DNA of 64,000 nucleotides from an uncultured Victivallales bacterium (lineage in GTDB: Bacteria > Verrucomicrobiota > Lentisphaeria > Victivallales > UBA1829). Positions 4,168 to 55,016 of the stretch are shown here, piece by piece (position 1 is the stretch's first letter; every line of letters starts with the position of its first letter). The stretch lies in contig CALXRI010000009.1 of NCBI GenBank assembly GCA_944390795.1, positions 1 through 64,000 on the forward strand. The letters are read 5' to 3'. Made by a program: the position numbers and the translations under genes. The notes under the pieces were generated by a model that was given only the letters and a program-made list of their open reading frames with translations, was not told where the DNA came from and searched no databases.

Positions 4168-4170
4168 TGA

Positions 4171-4309
4171 AAAATCAGGGCATCCTGCGATGCTCTGTAT
4201 CGCAAAACTGCTTCGTGCTTTCCTCTCAGTCCTGCCGCGCTCCGGCTGCGCAAGCCGGTCGCCGCAGGCGAAATCTCCGATACCGCGCATGCCTGCATCG
4301 CGGTAATTC
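4171..4309 (-). repeat. Dispersed structured repeat, copy A
   Basis: On the minus strand this segment aligns nearly without gaps (one 3-base difference) to 13981-14122. The core 4187-4301 is bounded by short inverted repeats (GCGATGC at 4187-4193, GCATCGC at 4295-4301 as read on the plus strand). An inner hairpin at 4242-4258 pairs CCGGCT with AGCCGG around a five-base loop. The copy starts at the stop codon of the PocR-AraC gene, in the same orientation, and fills the gap to the convergent hydrolase gene. Confidence 0.8.
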
Positions 4310-5159
4310 ATTGCAGACGCCGGAATCCGCCCGGTGTCATGCCCCGGTATTTGCGGTAAAGGCGCGAAAAATAATACCGGTCATGGATGCCGACCTGTTC
4401 GGCGGCTTCTCCGATGGAAAGTTCGCTGTGCTCCCTCAGAAGGCGTTCCGCGCGTGCCAGGCGTTTCTCAATGAGAAGCCTCTTGAAACTCGTGCCGGAG
4501 TGTTTCTGAAGAAAATGCGAAATTGTGGAAACGCTCCTCCCGACGTGGCGCGCGACCGTCGAAATTTTCAGCGGCGAAGTCAGGTTGTCCTCAATGCAGC
4601 GGACAATGGAGCGGTAGAGACGGTCACCGCCCGTCGTGACCAGTTCGCGCCGGACGATATAGTCGACAAGCAGCTCCATGAGCCCCGTCAGATTCTCCAT
4701 TCCCTCCTCGGAAAGATAAGGCAGCTCATGGAATGCTTTTTTCAGCTCGGAAAGTTCGGATCGGGTCCGGGCTTTCTCCGCCAGGTCGCCGGGGAGCGCC
4801 TCCGTGCTCCGGAACTGTCCGAACATGACATAGCCAAGCAGTTTGCCTTCGGAAATCACAGGCATGATCGCCTCCCACAGACGCGCATGGCAGAGATAGG
4901 ACTGGCAGCGCCCGGTTTTCCGGCTCAAAGCCTGTTTCTCCCTATCCAGGCGGAGACAGCGTTCCAGAGAAAAAAAACGGTTCTGCATCAGCTGGCAGAA
5001 GCGGCAGTTGCCTTCGCTGCGCCCCTGCCGCAGCACCTGCCCCTGCGGACCGTAGAACATCACGTGCACATGCATCACGGAGGCGAAATTGTCCAGAAGT
5101 TTCTGCACCTCGTCATGAAGGATCAGGTCAAGGGAAAAATCATGATTCGCCTCCGTCAC
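4308..5159 (-). CDS. PocR-domain AraC family transcriptional regulator
   Basis: A 283-residue one-component regulator. Residues about 10-160 form a PocR-type ligand-binding domain (LILHDEVQKLLDNF start, Cys-rich CRFCQLM and CQSYLCHARLW, then GKLLGYVMFGQFRS). Residues about 180-283 form the double helix-turn-helix of the AraC family, ending EQVGIHDRYYFSRLYRKYRGMTPG as in AraC, split by a few substitutions. The start codon is GTG, set by GGAGG seven bases upstream. It is divergent from the Gfo/Idh-isomerase pair at 5309-7221, which it probably activates in response to a small molecule (PocR senses 1,2-propanediol in Salmonella; the ligand here is unknown). Confidence 0.87.
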   Translation of the reverse strand: MTEANHDFSLDLILHDEVQKLLDNFASVMHVHVMFYGPQGQVLRQGRSEGNCRFCQLMQNRFFSLERCLRLDREKQALSRKTGRCQSYLCHARLWEAIMPVISEGKLLGYVMFGQFRSTEALPGDLAEKARTRSELSELKKAFHELPYLSEEGMENLTGLMELLVDYIVRRELVTTGGDRLYRSIVRCIEDNLTSPLKISTVARHVGRSVSTISHFLQKHSGTSFKRLLIEKRLARAERLLREHSELSIGEAAEQVGIHDRYYFSRLYRKYRGMTPGGFRRLQ

Positions 5160-13980: not shown

Positions 13981-14122
13981 AAATTCCCGCGATGCAAGCA
14001 TGCGCGGTATCAGGGATTTCGTCTGCCCCGACCGGTTTGCGCAGCTGGACCGCACCAGGACTCCCTGGAGAGCGCGAAGCAATTTCCGGCAATGCGGCGC
14101 ATCGCACTATCAACCTGATTTT
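13981..14122 (+). repeat. Dispersed structured repeat, copy B
   Basis: Aligns along its whole length with the minus-strand copy at 4171-4309. The core 13989-14105 has the same ends, GCGATGC and GCATCGC. The inner hairpin at 14032-14048 reads CCGGTT-TGCGC-AGCTGG; compared with copy A two stem pairs become G-U wobbles, so the stem is kept. A further 15-base inverted partner of its left end (14 of 15 matching) lies at 14203-14217 in the end of the IclR gene. Confidence 0.8.
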
Positions 14123-14174
14123 CTTGAATAAAATCAGCGGCAACCCTCACGCCGTATGCCATAACGGCATCGGC
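14115..14174 (-). terminator. Two hairpins downstream of the IclR gene
   Basis: GCCG-T-ATGCC (14151-14160) pairs with GGCAT-CGGC (14166-14174) with one bulge. CTGATTTT (14115-14122) pairs exactly with AAAATCAG (14130-14137). They lie just after the IclR stop codon on the minus strand and may end its transcript, although no clear T tract follows the first. Confidence 0.4.
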
Positions 14175-50220: not shown

Positions 50221-52286
50221 ACATGCCACCCGCAATGCCCGCGATATTCGCCGGACTTCTGTTCACGGTTCTGCTGATCTGCGGAATTGCCGAATTCCGC
50301 AGAGCGCCGCGGGGACGCCTGCTGCTTTATTTCGTTCTGCGCATGGGAGCATTTCTTCTGCTCGCCCTGATTCTGACATCTTCCGGCACGCTCCGCTGGG
50401 AGAGAACGCGCATCCCGCTGGAGGTCATCCTGCTCCGGGACGTTTCCGACAGCATGAGGATCCAGCAGGAATCCGTGCGCCGTGAATTTCAGGCAGTCCA
50501 TGACGAAACTCTGCGCGCGCTCAACGCTGTCCCGGGAATCCGGATCACGGAGCTGGTCTTTGCCGCAGAAACCGCGCCGGCGCGGAAAAGCCGCGTCCTG
50601 CCGGGCGGATCGACCGCTCTCGGCGACGCGCTGGCATCCCTGGCGCGCCGATACGCGGGGGCGCGGATTTTCCTCCTCAGCGACGGCCGCTCCAACAGCG
50701 GCGTGCATCCCGCCGCGGCCGCGGCGTTTCTGAAAAGCCAGGGCGCCGTTCTCAACGTGCTTCTGCCCGGGCGGACCGGAGAGGAACAATACCCCTCCAT
50801 CGTCTTCGAATCCGCCGCCGCGCCGGACTCCTTCCGCTCCGGGCAGCCGCCGCTTTTCCGCGCCATGCTCCTTCTTTCCGGCATCCCGGAGGGAAAAAGC
50901 GGAACGCTGCACGCGGAGCTTCGGATTGACGGGAAACCGGCGGGAGAGATCCGGAGGAATGCGGACAGCCCGGATGTCGAACTGCGCTTCAATCCGGATG
51001 CCGCCGTCCTTCCCGCCTCCGGCTGGCATGAATTTGAAATCCGCGCGGAACTCCGCGTGCCGGACGCCGCGCCCCTCCGGACCGTCTTCCGGGATGTTTT
51101 CGAAGTCCCCGCCGAAAACGCCGCAATGCTCCTCTGGAACAGAATGGATCCGGAACTGAGCGCGCTGCTGCCTCTTCTGCGCGAACGCTACCGCCCGTTC
51201 CATTTCGCCTATGCTTCCGTGTTCGCAGGGGAATCCGCAAAAGAACAGGAAAAACGGATCGATTCCCTCCGGCTCCTGATGCTCGGCCCGGTGCTCCCGG
51301 ACGCACTTTCCGCCGGCATCCGGAAACGGATTGCGGCCAGACTGCATTCCGGAACTCTGACGCTCCTCTTCCTGTCGCCCCGGGTTCTGAACGCATGGAG
51401 CCGCGATCCGGAAATCGGCAGATACGTTCCCGCCGCCGCGGCCTTCACACGCCTTCCGGACGGCACGCGCTACCGTTTCACGGACAGCGGCAGAATGCAT
51501 TCCCTGCCGTTCGCGTCGCTCTGGCGCATGACACCCAAACCGTCGGCGGCGGCAAAACGGCTCCCCGGGGACTGGAACGGCCTGCCGCCCCTGGTTCTTT
51601 CCACGGGCAATGTTTCGGCTTTCGCACCGGCGGGCACCTGGCGCTGGCGCCTTTCCCCGGACCGCTCCCGCGCACTCGCCTACACTCCCTTCTGGACGCA
51701 GATGCTTGGAAGCTGCGACAATTTCGACGGAAGCGATCTGCATTTTTCCATTGTCCGCGCGGACACTCTTCTCAGCAGCGACCTCTACCGTTTCACCGTC
51801 GAGGACTACGGCAGGAAAACTTCCGGAACGGAACTGCGACTGCTCCGCCGTGACACCGGAACCGGAACAATGCGGAAACTTCTTTCCTTCGGACCGGCGG
51901 AGAACCGCGTCTCCTCGGCGCTGCTCCGGATCACGGAACCGGGTGTTCACTGGTTTCAGGCGGAAGACGCGAAATCGAACCGGCGCACAAAACCTGTTCC
52001 CCTTGTTGTGCGCGGAAATGAAAAGGAGCAACGCTTCAGCACGCCGGATACGGAGATGCTGCGCATGCTGGCGGAACTGGGCGGAGGTTCGGCGCTCGGA
52101 CGCGCCGCAGTCCGTTCCGCCGCAGAAAAGCTGGCGGAACTGGCGGAAAAACCTGCATACGTCCACAGCAGGCAGTATCAGGAACCGCCGGCAGGATTCC
52201 GGATGCTCTGCGCCCTGCTCGCCTTTCTCCTTCTTGCCGCGGAATGGCTGCTGAGAAAAAAGGAGTCCTGTCATGCCGGATCATGA
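50214..52286 (+). CDS. Membrane protein with von Willebrand factor A domain
   Basis: A 690-residue protein. Two helices near the start (about 8-25 and 40-60) are followed by a vWA domain with a complete MIDAS DVSDSM at about residue 82, then GGSTALGDALASL and FLLSDGRSNSG. Residues about 190-640 are beta-rich and periplasmic, with a last helix near 665-680 and a basic tail. It lies between the BatA-like gene (7-base overlap) and the DUF4175 gene (14-base overlap), all in one translation-coupled string. The intact MIDAS, in contrast to its neighbour, suggests this is the metal-binding partner for a ligand or for the MoxR complex. Confidence 0.84.
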   Translation: MLNMPPAMPAIFAGLLFTVLLICGIAEFRRAPRGRLLLYFVLRMGAFLLLALILTSSGTLRWERTRIPLEVILLRDVSDSMRIQQESVRREFQAVHDETLRALNAVPGIRITELVFAAETAPARKSRVLPGGSTALGDALASLARRYAGARIFLLSDGRSNSGVHPAAAAAFLKSQGAVLNVLLPGRTGEEQYPSIVFESAAAPDSFRSGQPPLFRAMLLLSGIPEGKSGTLHAELRIDGKPAGEIRRNADSPDVELRFNPDAAVLPASGWHEFEIRAELRVPDAAPLRTVFRDVFEVPAENAAMLLWNRMDPELSALLPLLRERYRPFHFAYASVFAGESAKEQEKRIDSLRLLMLGPVLPDALSAGIRKRIAARLHSGTLTLLFLSPRVLNAWSRDPEIGRYVPAAAAFTRLPDGTRYRFTDSGRMHSLPFASLWRMTPKPSAAAKRLPGDWNGLPPLVLSTGNVSAFAPAGTWRWRLSPDRSRALAYTPFWTQMLGSCDNFDGSDLHFSIVRADTLLSSDLYRFTVEDYGRKTSGTELRLLRRDTGTGTMRKLLSFGPAENRVSSALLRITEPGVHWFQAEDAKSNRRTKPVPLVVRGNEKEQRFSTPDTEMLRMLAELGGGSALGRAAVRSAAEKLAELAEKPAYVHSRQYQEPPAGFRMLCALLAFLLLAAEWLLRKKESCHAGS

Positions 52287-54954
52287 GGAACGGTGCACAC
52301 TGCGGAATCTCCCTTCCGCCTTCTGGAAGGCGGAACGGTTCTTCTGCTGGGGGCGTGCAGTCCGCGCAATGCTGACGCTGTTCTGCGACTTCTCCCTTCT
52401 GCTTGTCATCTGCCGCGCGGCGGATCCCTTCTGCGCAGCCTGGAATGAAATCCTGAAACGTCTTCTCGTCTGGGCGGCGCTACTCGGAATTTTTCTTCAT
52501 GCCGCATGGATCTTTCTTGCGCCATGGATCGGGAAACGCGGAATCCCCGACTTCTTCGCCATGCTGTCGCACGGTTCGGAAAAAGCGCGGAAGATCGCCG
52601 CACCGCTTCTGACTCGCCGGATGCTGGCGGACGACACCGCCGCCGTCATCCGGGTTCTGACCCGTTCCATGGAATACTTCCTGCCGCCAGCCGCACTTTG
52701 CCGTGCGGCGGCTTCCGAAGGCCTCCGTGCGGCGGGGCTTGCCGTCTGCGCCCTGCTTCTTCTGCTGATTCCGCTCGGAAAGGACGGAGGACTTGAGGGA
52801 AAACTCCTGACGCTCCGTTCCTGGCTCATGGGAGCCGGATGGACCAGCAGTATGCCGCTGGAAATCCGCTCTCTCTTCCCGGGGGGAACCATCATCAAGC
52901 CCGGTGCGGAATGGGTTGTGAAGGTGGTATTCAACCGGGAACCGGAGGGGGAATCCCCCTCCGTCCGATGCATCATCGGAAAGGAAACGCAAAGCATCCC
53001 GCTGGTTGCGATTTCCGCACGGGAATATCAGGCGCTCATGGCGCCCTTCTCCGGAGAATGCCGTTATGCGGTCGAAGCGGAAAACCGCCGCACAAGGGAA
53101 TTTACAGTTCTGGCGCAGCCGTCCGCGCCGGTCGTCATCCGCCGCATCTCCCTGCATGCCGCCCCCGGAACGATCAGCCTGCCGCCGGAACGGAAGAAGT
53201 GGACGGTTCCCGCCGGAGCGCGCATCGCGCTTGCGGCGGATGCGCCTGCAAACTGCCTCCGGCTTGAAATTTCCGGTTCCGGCGGACTCCGCAGACAGCT
53301 CCGCAAAGATCCCGCAACCGGATTCTGGAAGACTTCGTTCACCGTTTGGGAGAGCGGCGCCTTCTTCTTCCAGACGCTGGAAACGGACGGCACGCGCGGC
53401 GGATCCGAACTCTACACGCTCGAAATTCAGCAGGACAATCCGCCGTCGGTCAGAATTGCGGCGCCGGCGAATCTCGCGCCGCTGCATCATCCCGGATCCT
53501 TCACGGTGGAAGCGGACGACGACTTCGCGCTCAAAAGCGTCACGCTCCACCTCAACAATCTCAACGGAGGCATTGAAACACTGGAAGGGGCGGCGCTCTC
53601 CGGCACGGAACGGGAATGGAAGGAACCGTTCCGTCTGACCGTTACGAAATCCGCGCGCCTCATCACTTCCGTCATTGCCGTTGCGGCGGAGGCGGAGGAA
53701 AACTCTCCCGTCCGCAGGAACGCCTTCTCGGGCATTCAGTTCCATCCCGTCGTCGTGGAATCCGAATCCGAAATGCTGAACAACCCGCAGGTGATCCGCG
53801 CATTCCGGGAATGGAGAAAAAACCGCAGATACGAGGAGCCGAACAAAAAGATCCCGCCGCCGGAAAGTCCGGACAAACAGAAAGAGCCGGAGCAAAGGCA
53901 GAATACGGAAAAGAATCACAGCGAGTCTCCCGAAGGGAAACAGAAATCCGACGACAGCCGGCAGGGAAAATCCGACTCCGGAAAACAGGACGCAGCGCCG
54001 GAAAAACATCCCGATGAGAGACGGAATGCCGGAAACGGACAGGAAAAAGACAAAAAACAGAATGACCGGAAAGGAGCGGATTCCGGAGAAGAACAGAATG
54101 CCGGAAACGGACAGGAAAAAGGAGAGAAAGGCTCCGCCGGAAAGCAAAACGCAAAACAAGAATCCGCCCAGACAGGAGGAGAACAGGACGGGAATTCCGG
54201 CAAGGAAGCTTCCCGGCAGGAACAGGCTCCATCCGGCGGAAAGGAAAACGGCGATTCCCCCGGAACACCGGGAGGGACCTCTCCCGGAAAAGGAACGGGC
54301 AGCGCACCCGCCGGAGAACAGGGGGAAGGTTCCGAAGGAAAAGATACAGAAGGAAAACAGGGCTCCCCGGACGGAAAGCAGAATGACGGAGGCGGACAGG
54401 AAGCCGGCGCGCACAGAGGCCCGGGCAGAAAACAGAAACAGACGGGAAACGGACAGGCGCAGGCAGGACGGACCAGAGCCCAGGCCGCGGACGGATCGTC
54501 ACAGGGCGGAAACCCTGCGGCCCCGGGCGGAGGCGGAAACACTGCGCTGAATACGGGGCGCAATGCGGAAAATCCGGAAGAGAAAGAAACCTCCTCCCCG
54601 CCGGAAGTCGTCGTCGGCACCGCGCGCCGGGGCGACGGGAAGAAGTCCGGTCCGCAGCAGGAAAAAACGCCTCCGCAAAATGAGCTTCCGCAAAATACGG
54701 AAAAAGACAGACCCTGGTCCATGGAAGACGACAACCGCCTGCATGCGGATCCCTCCGGCGGAAAACGGGAAACGCTCCTTCTGAAGGAAACCGGAATCGA
54801 AGTGGTTCCAGACAGAAAATACACCCAGGATCAGAAGAGCGAACTGGAGCGGGCAATCCGCCGCTACGATGCAGTCCGCGCCCGTCTGAGTGATGCGGAA
54901 CGCCGCACAGCCGATGAATATTACCGCCGTCTCCGGGAAATTCTCAGGCAATGA
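52273..54954 (+). CDS. DUF4175-like membrane protein with low-complexity tail
   Basis: An 893-residue protein. Three to four hydrophobic helices (about 35-55, 63-85, 155-172) come first, as in DUF4175, then a beta-rich periplasmic part (about 200-510). Residues about 535-830 are a long linker rich in Gly, Lys, Gln, Glu and Asn (GNGQEK motifs), followed by a short folded helix pair ending RRTADEYYRRLREIL. The tail contains a 72-base tandem repeat at DNA level. GGAG precedes the ATG, and the gene overlaps its neighbour by 14 bases. It closes the MoxR cluster. A periplasmic spanning role of the linker is inference. Confidence 0.8.
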   Translation: MPDHEERCTLRNLPSAFWKAERFFCWGRAVRAMLTLFCDFSLLLVICRAADPFCAAWNEILKRLLVWAALLGIFLHAAWIFLAPWIGKRGIPDFFAMLSHGSEKARKIAAPLLTRRMLADDTAAVIRVLTRSMEYFLPPAALCRAAASEGLRAAGLAVCALLLLLIPLGKDGGLEGKLLTLRSWLMGAGWTSSMPLEIRSLFPGGTIIKPGAEWVVKVVFNREPEGESPSVRCIIGKETQSIPLVAISAREYQALMAPFSGECRYAVEAENRRTREFTVLAQPSAPVVIRRISLHAAPGTISLPPERKKWTVPAGARIALAADAPANCLRLEISGSGGLRRQLRKDPATGFWKTSFTVWESGAFFFQTLETDGTRGGSELYTLEIQQDNPPSVRIAAPANLAPLHHPGSFTVEADDDFALKSVTLHLNNLNGGIETLEGAALSGTEREWKEPFRLTVTKSARLITSVIAVAAEAEENSPVRRNAFSGIQFHPVVVESESEMLNNPQVIRAFREWRKNRRYEEPNKKIPPPESPDKQKEPEQRQNTEKNHSESPEGKQKSDDSRQGKSDSGKQDAAPEKHPDERRNAGNGQEKDKKQNDRKGADSGEEQNAGNGQEKGEKGSAGKQNAKQESAQTGGEQDGNSGKEASRQEQAPSGGKENGDSPGTPGGTSPGKGTGSAPAGEQGEGSEGKDTEGKQGSPDGKQNDGGGQEAGAHRGPGRKQKQTGNGQAQAGRTRAQAADGSSQGGNPAAPGGGGNTALNTGRNAENPEEKETSSPPEVVVGTARRGDGKKSGPQQEKTPPQNELPQNTEKDRPWSMEDDNRLHADPSGGKRETLLLKETGIEVVPDRKYTQDQKSELERAIRRYDAVRARLSDAERRTADEYYRRLREILRQ
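54024..54121 (+). repeat. Direct repeat in the low-complexity tail (72-base period)
   Basis: A 26-base segment beginning GAATGCCGGAAACGG is identical at 54024-54049 and 54096-54121. The period of 72 is a multiple of three, so the repeat keeps the frame and the tail can grow or shrink by whole units. Confidence 0.8.
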
Positions 54955-54967
54955 ACCTCCCCGGCCG

Positions 54968-55016
54968 GGACATGCGGCGGATCGGGGATTTCCTCTGCGG
55001 CAGCCGGCGGCTTCAG
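54968..55016 (+). repeat. Dispersed structured repeat, partial copy C
   Basis: About 48 bases starting ATGCGGCGGATCGGGG match copies A and B over the inner part (ATGCG..GG.ATC.GGGATTTC..CTGC). A hairpin in the matching place pairs GGCGGCT with AGCCCGCC with one bulged C. It follows the stop of the DUF4175 gene by about 15 bases, in the same orientation, as copy A follows its gene. The outer inverted repeats are not found here. Confidence 0.55.

Follow-up and report, generated by a model that had tools for sequence, protein, structure and literature searches.

Three copies of a hairpin-rich repeat (A, B and C) lie in the window, i.e. in the whole 64,000-nt stretch of DNA analysed here, and all three sit at or near the 3' end of a gene. 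The locus raises the question of what this repeat is and what brings it to gene ends. The initial annotation had given the gene-end location as applying to all copies; this holds in the window (3/3), and genome-wide it is only a strong bias.

Copies of the repeat in the window

When the window was searched, copy A on the minus strand and copy B on the plus strand matched each other at 78% identity along 141 bp, the alignment containing a single 3-base gap (E = 1e-26). The earlier description of about 140 bp with one 3-base difference was right in length and gap, but not in the bases, about 28 of which differ. The ends GCGATGC/GCATCGC and the inner hairpins, CCGGCT-TGCGC-AGCCGG in A (minus strand) and CCGGTT-TGCGC-AGCTGG in B, were seen as described, and coding sequence was ruled out, as had been supposed, by indels between copies that are not multiples of three. 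Copy C, a degraded partial match of 38 bp at 79% identity (E = 6e-4), starts with AATGAACCTCCCCGG followed by ATCGGGGATTTC, the same as older full copies, and its AAT lies over the stop codon of an 893-aa ORF; judged by these features it is probably a genuine third member of the family, as claimed.

Coordinates of the three copies and of their features in the window are given in Table 1. In copy A, T4310 together with GA of the element forms the TGA stop of a PocR/AraC-type gene (4308-5159, minus strand). The left edge of copy B reads GAC instead of AAT and is presumably a decayed AAT. The genes next to the copies are unrelated in kind: an esterase-like hydrolase and the PocR/AraC regulator around A, an IclR regulator beside B, and the 893-aa protein, which has no Pfam match, and a pterin-binding enzyme around C.

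Table 1. Positions in the window of copies A, B and C, their hairpins and their AAT triplets
Feature	Position	Strand	Details and basis
Copy A, element body	4169..4309	-	First base G4309, T-tract 4174-4170; match to B, boundaries by analogy with empty sites
AAT target triplet of copy A	4310..4312	-	Insertion rule from empty sites
H1, left imperfect hairpin of A, CCGCGATGC-AG-GCATGCGCGG	4281..4303	-	Covariation
Core hairpins of A, H2 TCGCC-TGC-GGCGA and H3 CCGGCT-TGCGC-AGCCGG	4241..4273 (approximate limits)	-	
H5, right hairpin of A, GCGATAC-AGA-GCATCGC	4185..4203 (approximate limits)	-	
Copy B, element body, older copy	13981..14126	+	79.7% to young consensus
AAT, right edge of copy B	14127..14129	+	
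AAT, left edge of copy C	54950..54952	+	Its T is base 1 of the TGA stop of ORF 52273-54954 (893 aa)
Copy C, degraded, truncated, older type; left end and first half of core	54953..55016	+	

The family has spread recently within one genus

Further copies in the genome had been named beforehand as what such an element should have. In the genome that holds the window (G000; 66 contigs, 3.44 Mb), scoring only 40 out of 126 candidates gave at least 49 matches at E <= 1. The core pattern was found 65 times in G000, 84 times in G002 and 118 times in G003, three species of one genus (Victivallales, Lentisphaeria), while the reversed control gave 0. All four genomes of the genus carry full-length or nearly full-length copies, genus g10 has related copies and family f2 has core pieces; when 197 genomes of the class were searched, G123 of family f4 alone gave a match at E <= 1e-8 outside the family. 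About a dozen copies in G000 are near-identical over 156 bp and have unrelated flanks, the mean identity being 97% for 13 aligned copies and 27% for their 50-bp flanks, indicating that the family moved recently. The assemblies of the four genomes in the genus are fragmented (40-250 contigs), and contig ends of G000 (C8, C23, C38, C39, C40, C47, C54 and C5) lie inside or beside copies; with so many contig ends there, the true copy number is probably higher. Literature searches found no report of this repeat family.

Two individual G000 copies were recorded for their surroundings. One with 100% identity to the consensus lies ~105 bases downstream of a tRNA gene (L014, C3:214666-214821), and a young one lies inside or at the end of an open frame adjoining a serine-recombinase match (L008, C56:7096-7242); this frame is possibly a gene interrupted by the element.

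Insertion takes place at AAT in one orientation

Sites filled in one species and empty in another define the insertion rule (element in square brackets). Two G000 copies whose sites are empty in G002 could be read base-exactly: L010, empty TTTTTTTAAAATAAAAAAAGC and filled TTTTTTTAAAAT[AAATTACC...TTTTTTTG]AATAAAAAAAGC, and L029, empty GAAAGAATAAATCC and filled GAAAGAAT[CAATTACC...TTTTTTTTG]AATAAATCC. G002 copies at sites empty in G000 gave L359, empty TTCGAATGAAGC and filled TTCGAAT[AAATTACC...TTTTTTTGA]AATGAAGC, and L149, empty CAAGAAATGAACC and filled CAAGAAAT[AAATTACC...TTTTTTTGA]AATGAACC. A G003 copy, L080, is missing from both G000 and G002 (empty GCCAAATCATAAG; filled GCAAAAT[GAATTACC...TTTTTTTTG]AATCATAAG), and there the stop is supplied by the element itself, one codon early. 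L345 and L216, G002 copies whose sites are empty in G000, fit with some flank divergence, the triplet of L345 being changed in G000. Flanking repeats, for which a check had been proposed, are thus seen as AAT on both sides: the triplet stands once in the empty and twice in the filled sites at L010, L029, L359, L149, L216 and L080, and at L345 with the changed empty triplet. Another G002 copy lies exactly before an older copy, at an AATGAA edge, and G000 has the older copy alone. At L009, L012, L013, L014, L015, L093 and L360 one side was too diverged to define an empty site.

In all clear cases AAT runs in the same sense, never as ATT. The bases after AAT are target-derived, as they were present before insertion in the tested sites; by species this triplet is AAA in G000, often GAA in G002 and mostly CAA in G003. 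A 6-base target duplication, AATAAA, first suggested by G000 copies, was rejected since left and right hexamers differ in G002 and G003; 3 bases (AAT) fit the tested sites. Because a target AAT next to an element ending in AAT would look the same, AAT duplication is used here as a description and not as proof of staggered cuts.

The AAT target often overlaps stop codons, which the element normally rebuilds

The T of AAT is the first base of the stop codon of an upstream frame of at least 100 codons in 38 of 105 distinct insertions, compared with 7 and 9 in the other frames. This holds for insertions of the ATTACC type (24/77; 5 and 5 in the other two frames; p 6e-11) as well as for those of the older type (14/28; 2 and 4; p 2e-7), where a few sites may occur in both lists. 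The first two bases of the element are AA, GA or, once, CA, and after T they normally rebuild TAA or TGA, so that the upstream reading frame still ends. At L359 the stop TGA shares bases with an ATG, possibly the start of the next gene; in the filled site the frame ends in TAA and the ATG is kept. Repeats are common at the gene ends of bacteria and are usually explained there by selection. Here the location follows from the insertion rule itself, in which the AAT target falls on stop codons and the stop is restored by the element; this would give a parasite a concrete and testable route to spread in a dense genome without breaking genes.

Structure of the element

The element proper is ~147 bp long, RAATTACC...TTTTTTTG, between 3-bp AAT repeats; the young consensus is (AAT)AAATTACCGCGATGCAAGCATGCGCGGTATTAGGGATTTCGCCTCCGGCGACCAGCTTGCGCAGCTGGACCGCGGCAGGACTGAGAGTCCTGCACGAAGCAATTTTTGGCGATGCAGAGCATCGCGGTATTAACCTAAATTTTTTTG(AAT), and the older type starts AATGAACYGCCCCGGTGCAGAGCAC. 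Five hairpins are predicted in the strand, in the order left H1 (CCGCGATGC-AA-GCATGCGCGG, with one extra base), core H2 (TCGCC-TCC-GGCGA), H3 (CAGCT-TGCGC-AGCTG) and H4 (GCAGGACT-GAG-AGTCCTGC), and right H5 (GCGATGC-AGA-GCATCGC). Folding of the consensus as DNA gave z = -5.5 and a predicted 11-bp end-to-end stem enclosing H2-H4. An 11-bp inverted repeat, TACCGCGATGC/GCATCGCGGTA, is subterminal, lying about 4 and 20 bases in from the ends; the outermost sequences, AAATTACC and TTTTTTTG, do not repeat each other. Copy A alone, folded as RNA, was only slightly better than shuffles (z -1.9); in the predicted multibranched fold its H5 is the outer partner of H1.

Conservation of the stems, expected from the initial annotation, was borne out by changes on both sides of pairs. 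In 60 diverged copies the named stems carry 53 such changes, compared with 26.3 in shuffles (0/500) and 14-26 when the stems were slid; H1 carries most of them, 7 of the 10 pairs of helix 1 having changed on both sides. When stems were not required, the inner pairs of H2 were kept in 41 of 90 distinct variants, with 14.3 expected and a maximum of 25. Variants of H2 among the collected loci, from a listing that required stems, are TCGTGC..GCACGA, TCGCGC..GCGCGA, TCGCCC..GGGCGA and TCGTCCGC..GCGGACGA. In the G123 copy H1, H2, H3, H5 and a GGGG..TTAACCCC tail are retained although the letters of the stems differ, and in G039 both end hairpins have changed together to CGACCC..GGGTCG. Within the genus H2, H3 and H5 vary little. 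The 3' arm of H4 is gone from about half of the copies (AGTCCTGC to GGAAAGC or GGAGAGC; columns 94-117) but perfect in the young G000 copies, possibly reflecting palindrome repair or subfamily replacement. RNAalifold on the whole alignment gave a weak, different structure of 8 pairs and did not recover the hairpin model, because there are two types of H1, H4 is half lost and the core palindromes can pair in more than one way; the count on the named structure was used in its place. As RNAalifold alone failed on the model, support for the structure is real but moderate, and with this strength the sequences suggest that the stems were kept, by selection or by copying, through compensatory changes, also in the diverged copy of another family. 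Rfam covariance models found only tRNAs at gathering score and nothing credible at E <= 1.

A lone left hairpin, AATAAATTACCTCGATGCAAGCATACGAGGTATTA, stands directly after a terminator-like hairpin in G025, a one-contig, AT-rich genome of another family (L038/L333, C1:1393196-1393230), and its stem change is compensatory. The core H2-H3-H4 is also joined to unrelated palindromes, e.g. to a block CGGCGGCTCTCGAAGCTTCGCTTCTCG before it or, after it, to AATTTGC-AAG-GCAAATT, GGAAGAATGC..GCATTCTTCC or GGTCAAGGGCC..GGCCCTTGGC. These mosaics form tandem units of ~407 bp with ten or so different hairpins, having the core in common with the 150-bp element. Such units lie at L112 (G000 C11:17000-24000), L113, L130 and L131; those of L112 and L113 had no Rfam match.

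Search for the mobilising enzyme

No Y1, reverse-transcriptase, serine-recombinase or IS110 gene was common to G000, G002 and G003, the species with young copies, so that none of them could be named as the mobilising enzyme. Y1 is present as a remnant in G000, as degenerate pieces in G002 and intact in G001, with no match in G003; RVT_1 (reverse transcriptase) was found in G002 only and not in G000, G001 or G003; serine recombinase had no match in G003 and IS110 transposase none in G002. The ends of the element were not found beside the Y1, IS110, serine-recombinase or RT loci fetched, and in G000 and G002 no left end without a core, as expected of an autonomous partner, was noticed except those running off a contig. 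Fragmented metagenome assemblies lose multicopy elements, and a multicopy transposase could therefore be missing from them.

The Y1 remnant in G000 (L072, C3:76606-76746) is of IS200 type and closely similar to the intact transposase of G001; it is not flanked by copies, and neither of the two has similar ends, by which an IS200 origin was rejected. In G024 a Y1 fragment adjoins a left end, the pair resembling two bits of debris, and a comparison with HEARO/IscB led nowhere.

Mobile element or conserved RNA

We conclude, with a probability of roughly three in four, that the repeat is a non-autonomous, gene-free mobile DNA element of ~147 bp that follows an AAT/stop-codon rule and was recently amplified in one genus of Victivallales; this estimate covers mobility and the rule, not the chemistry. 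Copies insert in one orientation at an AAT, with AAT then on both sides and its T often the first base of a stop; the start of the element normally restores the stop after T, and the downstream sequence is kept, even an overlapping ATG. In tandem arrays, a new copy occupies the AAT that borders an older copy. A trans-acting enzyme would recognise the folded ends and move the element; that no gene with matching ends was found speaks against this reading. The competitor outside mobility, a terminator or regulatory RNA that selection keeps at gene ends and that is only incidentally mobile, would account for the compensatory changes, the T-tract at the right end and the position just downstream of genes. 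It is nevertheless highly improbable, given that copies are absent at orthologous sites in sister species, that the neighbouring genes are unrelated in kind, and that the T-tract lies over ten bases from H5, a simple terminator scan of one locus giving no site there.

As to how the mobile element moves, single-strand DNA transfer of the kind that HUH (Y1) transposases carry out is our leading, still tentative, choice, which one-way insertion and the end hairpins would favour over a DDE route. Set against it are H1, which at only 4 bases from the left end is closer than in IS608-type ends, and the subterminal inverted repeat of the two ends, which a DDE enzyme could use as well. An ordinary MITE, for which the DDE transposase of some insertion sequence would have made AAT a 3-bp target-site duplication, would explain the inverted repeat, the exact AAT repeats and the typical size and copy number. 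We consider it unlikely, since the inverted repeats lie inside very ends that do not match, insertions occur strictly in one direction with respect to AAT although the target site of a DDE enzyme is usually symmetric, and no insertion sequence with these ends was found beside the Y1, IS110, serine-recombinase or RT loci. Site-specific integration of a small circle, in which a recombinase of the serine, tyrosine or IS110 type (bridge-RNA) would use a 2-3 bp core within AAT, would suit the one-way insertion and the tandem arrays in which neighbours have a junction in common. It would also suit the species-dependent triplet behind the target, such as a guided enzyme might produce. That route is doubtful too, as G003 lacks a serine-recombinase match and G002 an IS110 match. 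Similarly doubtful is a wider version of our own reading, in which folded mobile DNA throughout the order Victivallales would target the stop codon itself, with restorative ends, species-specific target halves set by a guided recombinase and a core shuffled among palindromic modules, making up a combinatorial intergenic system. Movement of a REP/BIME family by a RAYT, which the palindromic, extragenic, clustered copies and the single stand-alone hairpin unit in G025 might suggest, is very improbable: the repeat bears no GTAG tag, what is copied is a ~147-bp unit of several hairpins, and Y1 is only a remnant in G000, degenerate in G002 and without a match in G003. The initial proposal of an undescribed REP-, BIME- or MITE-like element thus stands as far as a dispersed, non-coding, stem-conserved element is concerned, but true REP/RAYT membership, with no GTAG, a ~147-bp unit, only a Y1 remnant in G000 and no Y1 match in G003, is not supported. 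With cross-species covariation and many polymorphic sites at hand in this family, the search for its mobiliser becomes a direct question.

Comparison with known systems

The closest kinds are MITEs, PATEs and BOX elements, and the repeat agrees with none of their definitions in full. Like IS200/IS605 elements it has hairpins of like sequence at both ends and inserts one-way by a short fixed target (PMC7290912), but it carries no tnpA, has a hairpin almost at its left tip and shows the target sequence also at its right edge. With REP, BIME and REPIN sequences it shares being palindromic, extragenic, foldable as a single strand and clustered in tandem (PMC2817692, PMC3733652, PMC3116915). REPs, however, carry GTAG or CGTC tags, the GTAG ones having RAYTs (PMC3733652), and REPINs are pairs of REPs (PMC3116915), whereas the tags are absent from our consensus and no RAYT was found in the carriers. 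The unit is also much longer than the 20-40 bp of REPs. BOX elements of Streptococcus pneumoniae are likewise modular, combine a conserved core with other modules and have a strong predicted fold (PMC3049150); in our repeat the modules are different palindromes instead of tandem boxB units, and there is AAT/stop-codon targeting. It resembles MITEs in being small, gene-free, folded and intergenic with short direct repeats, and in the target-site duplication (AAT once when empty, twice when filled), but its inverted repeats are not terminal, its AAT target is one-way and no parent IS was found beside the loci fetched. The best match in form is to PATEs, the palindrome-associated transposable elements of Haloquadratum, which are defined by IS605-type ends and the lack of target duplication (PMC3119063). 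The repeat has their near-terminal palindromes (H1/H5) and, like them, no gene. It differs in having ends unlike any Y1/IS605-type loci compared and in being flanked by AAT on both sides, although the same picture would result from a target triplet together with an AAT carried by the element; unlike PATEs, it favours stop codons and conserves several internal hairpins.
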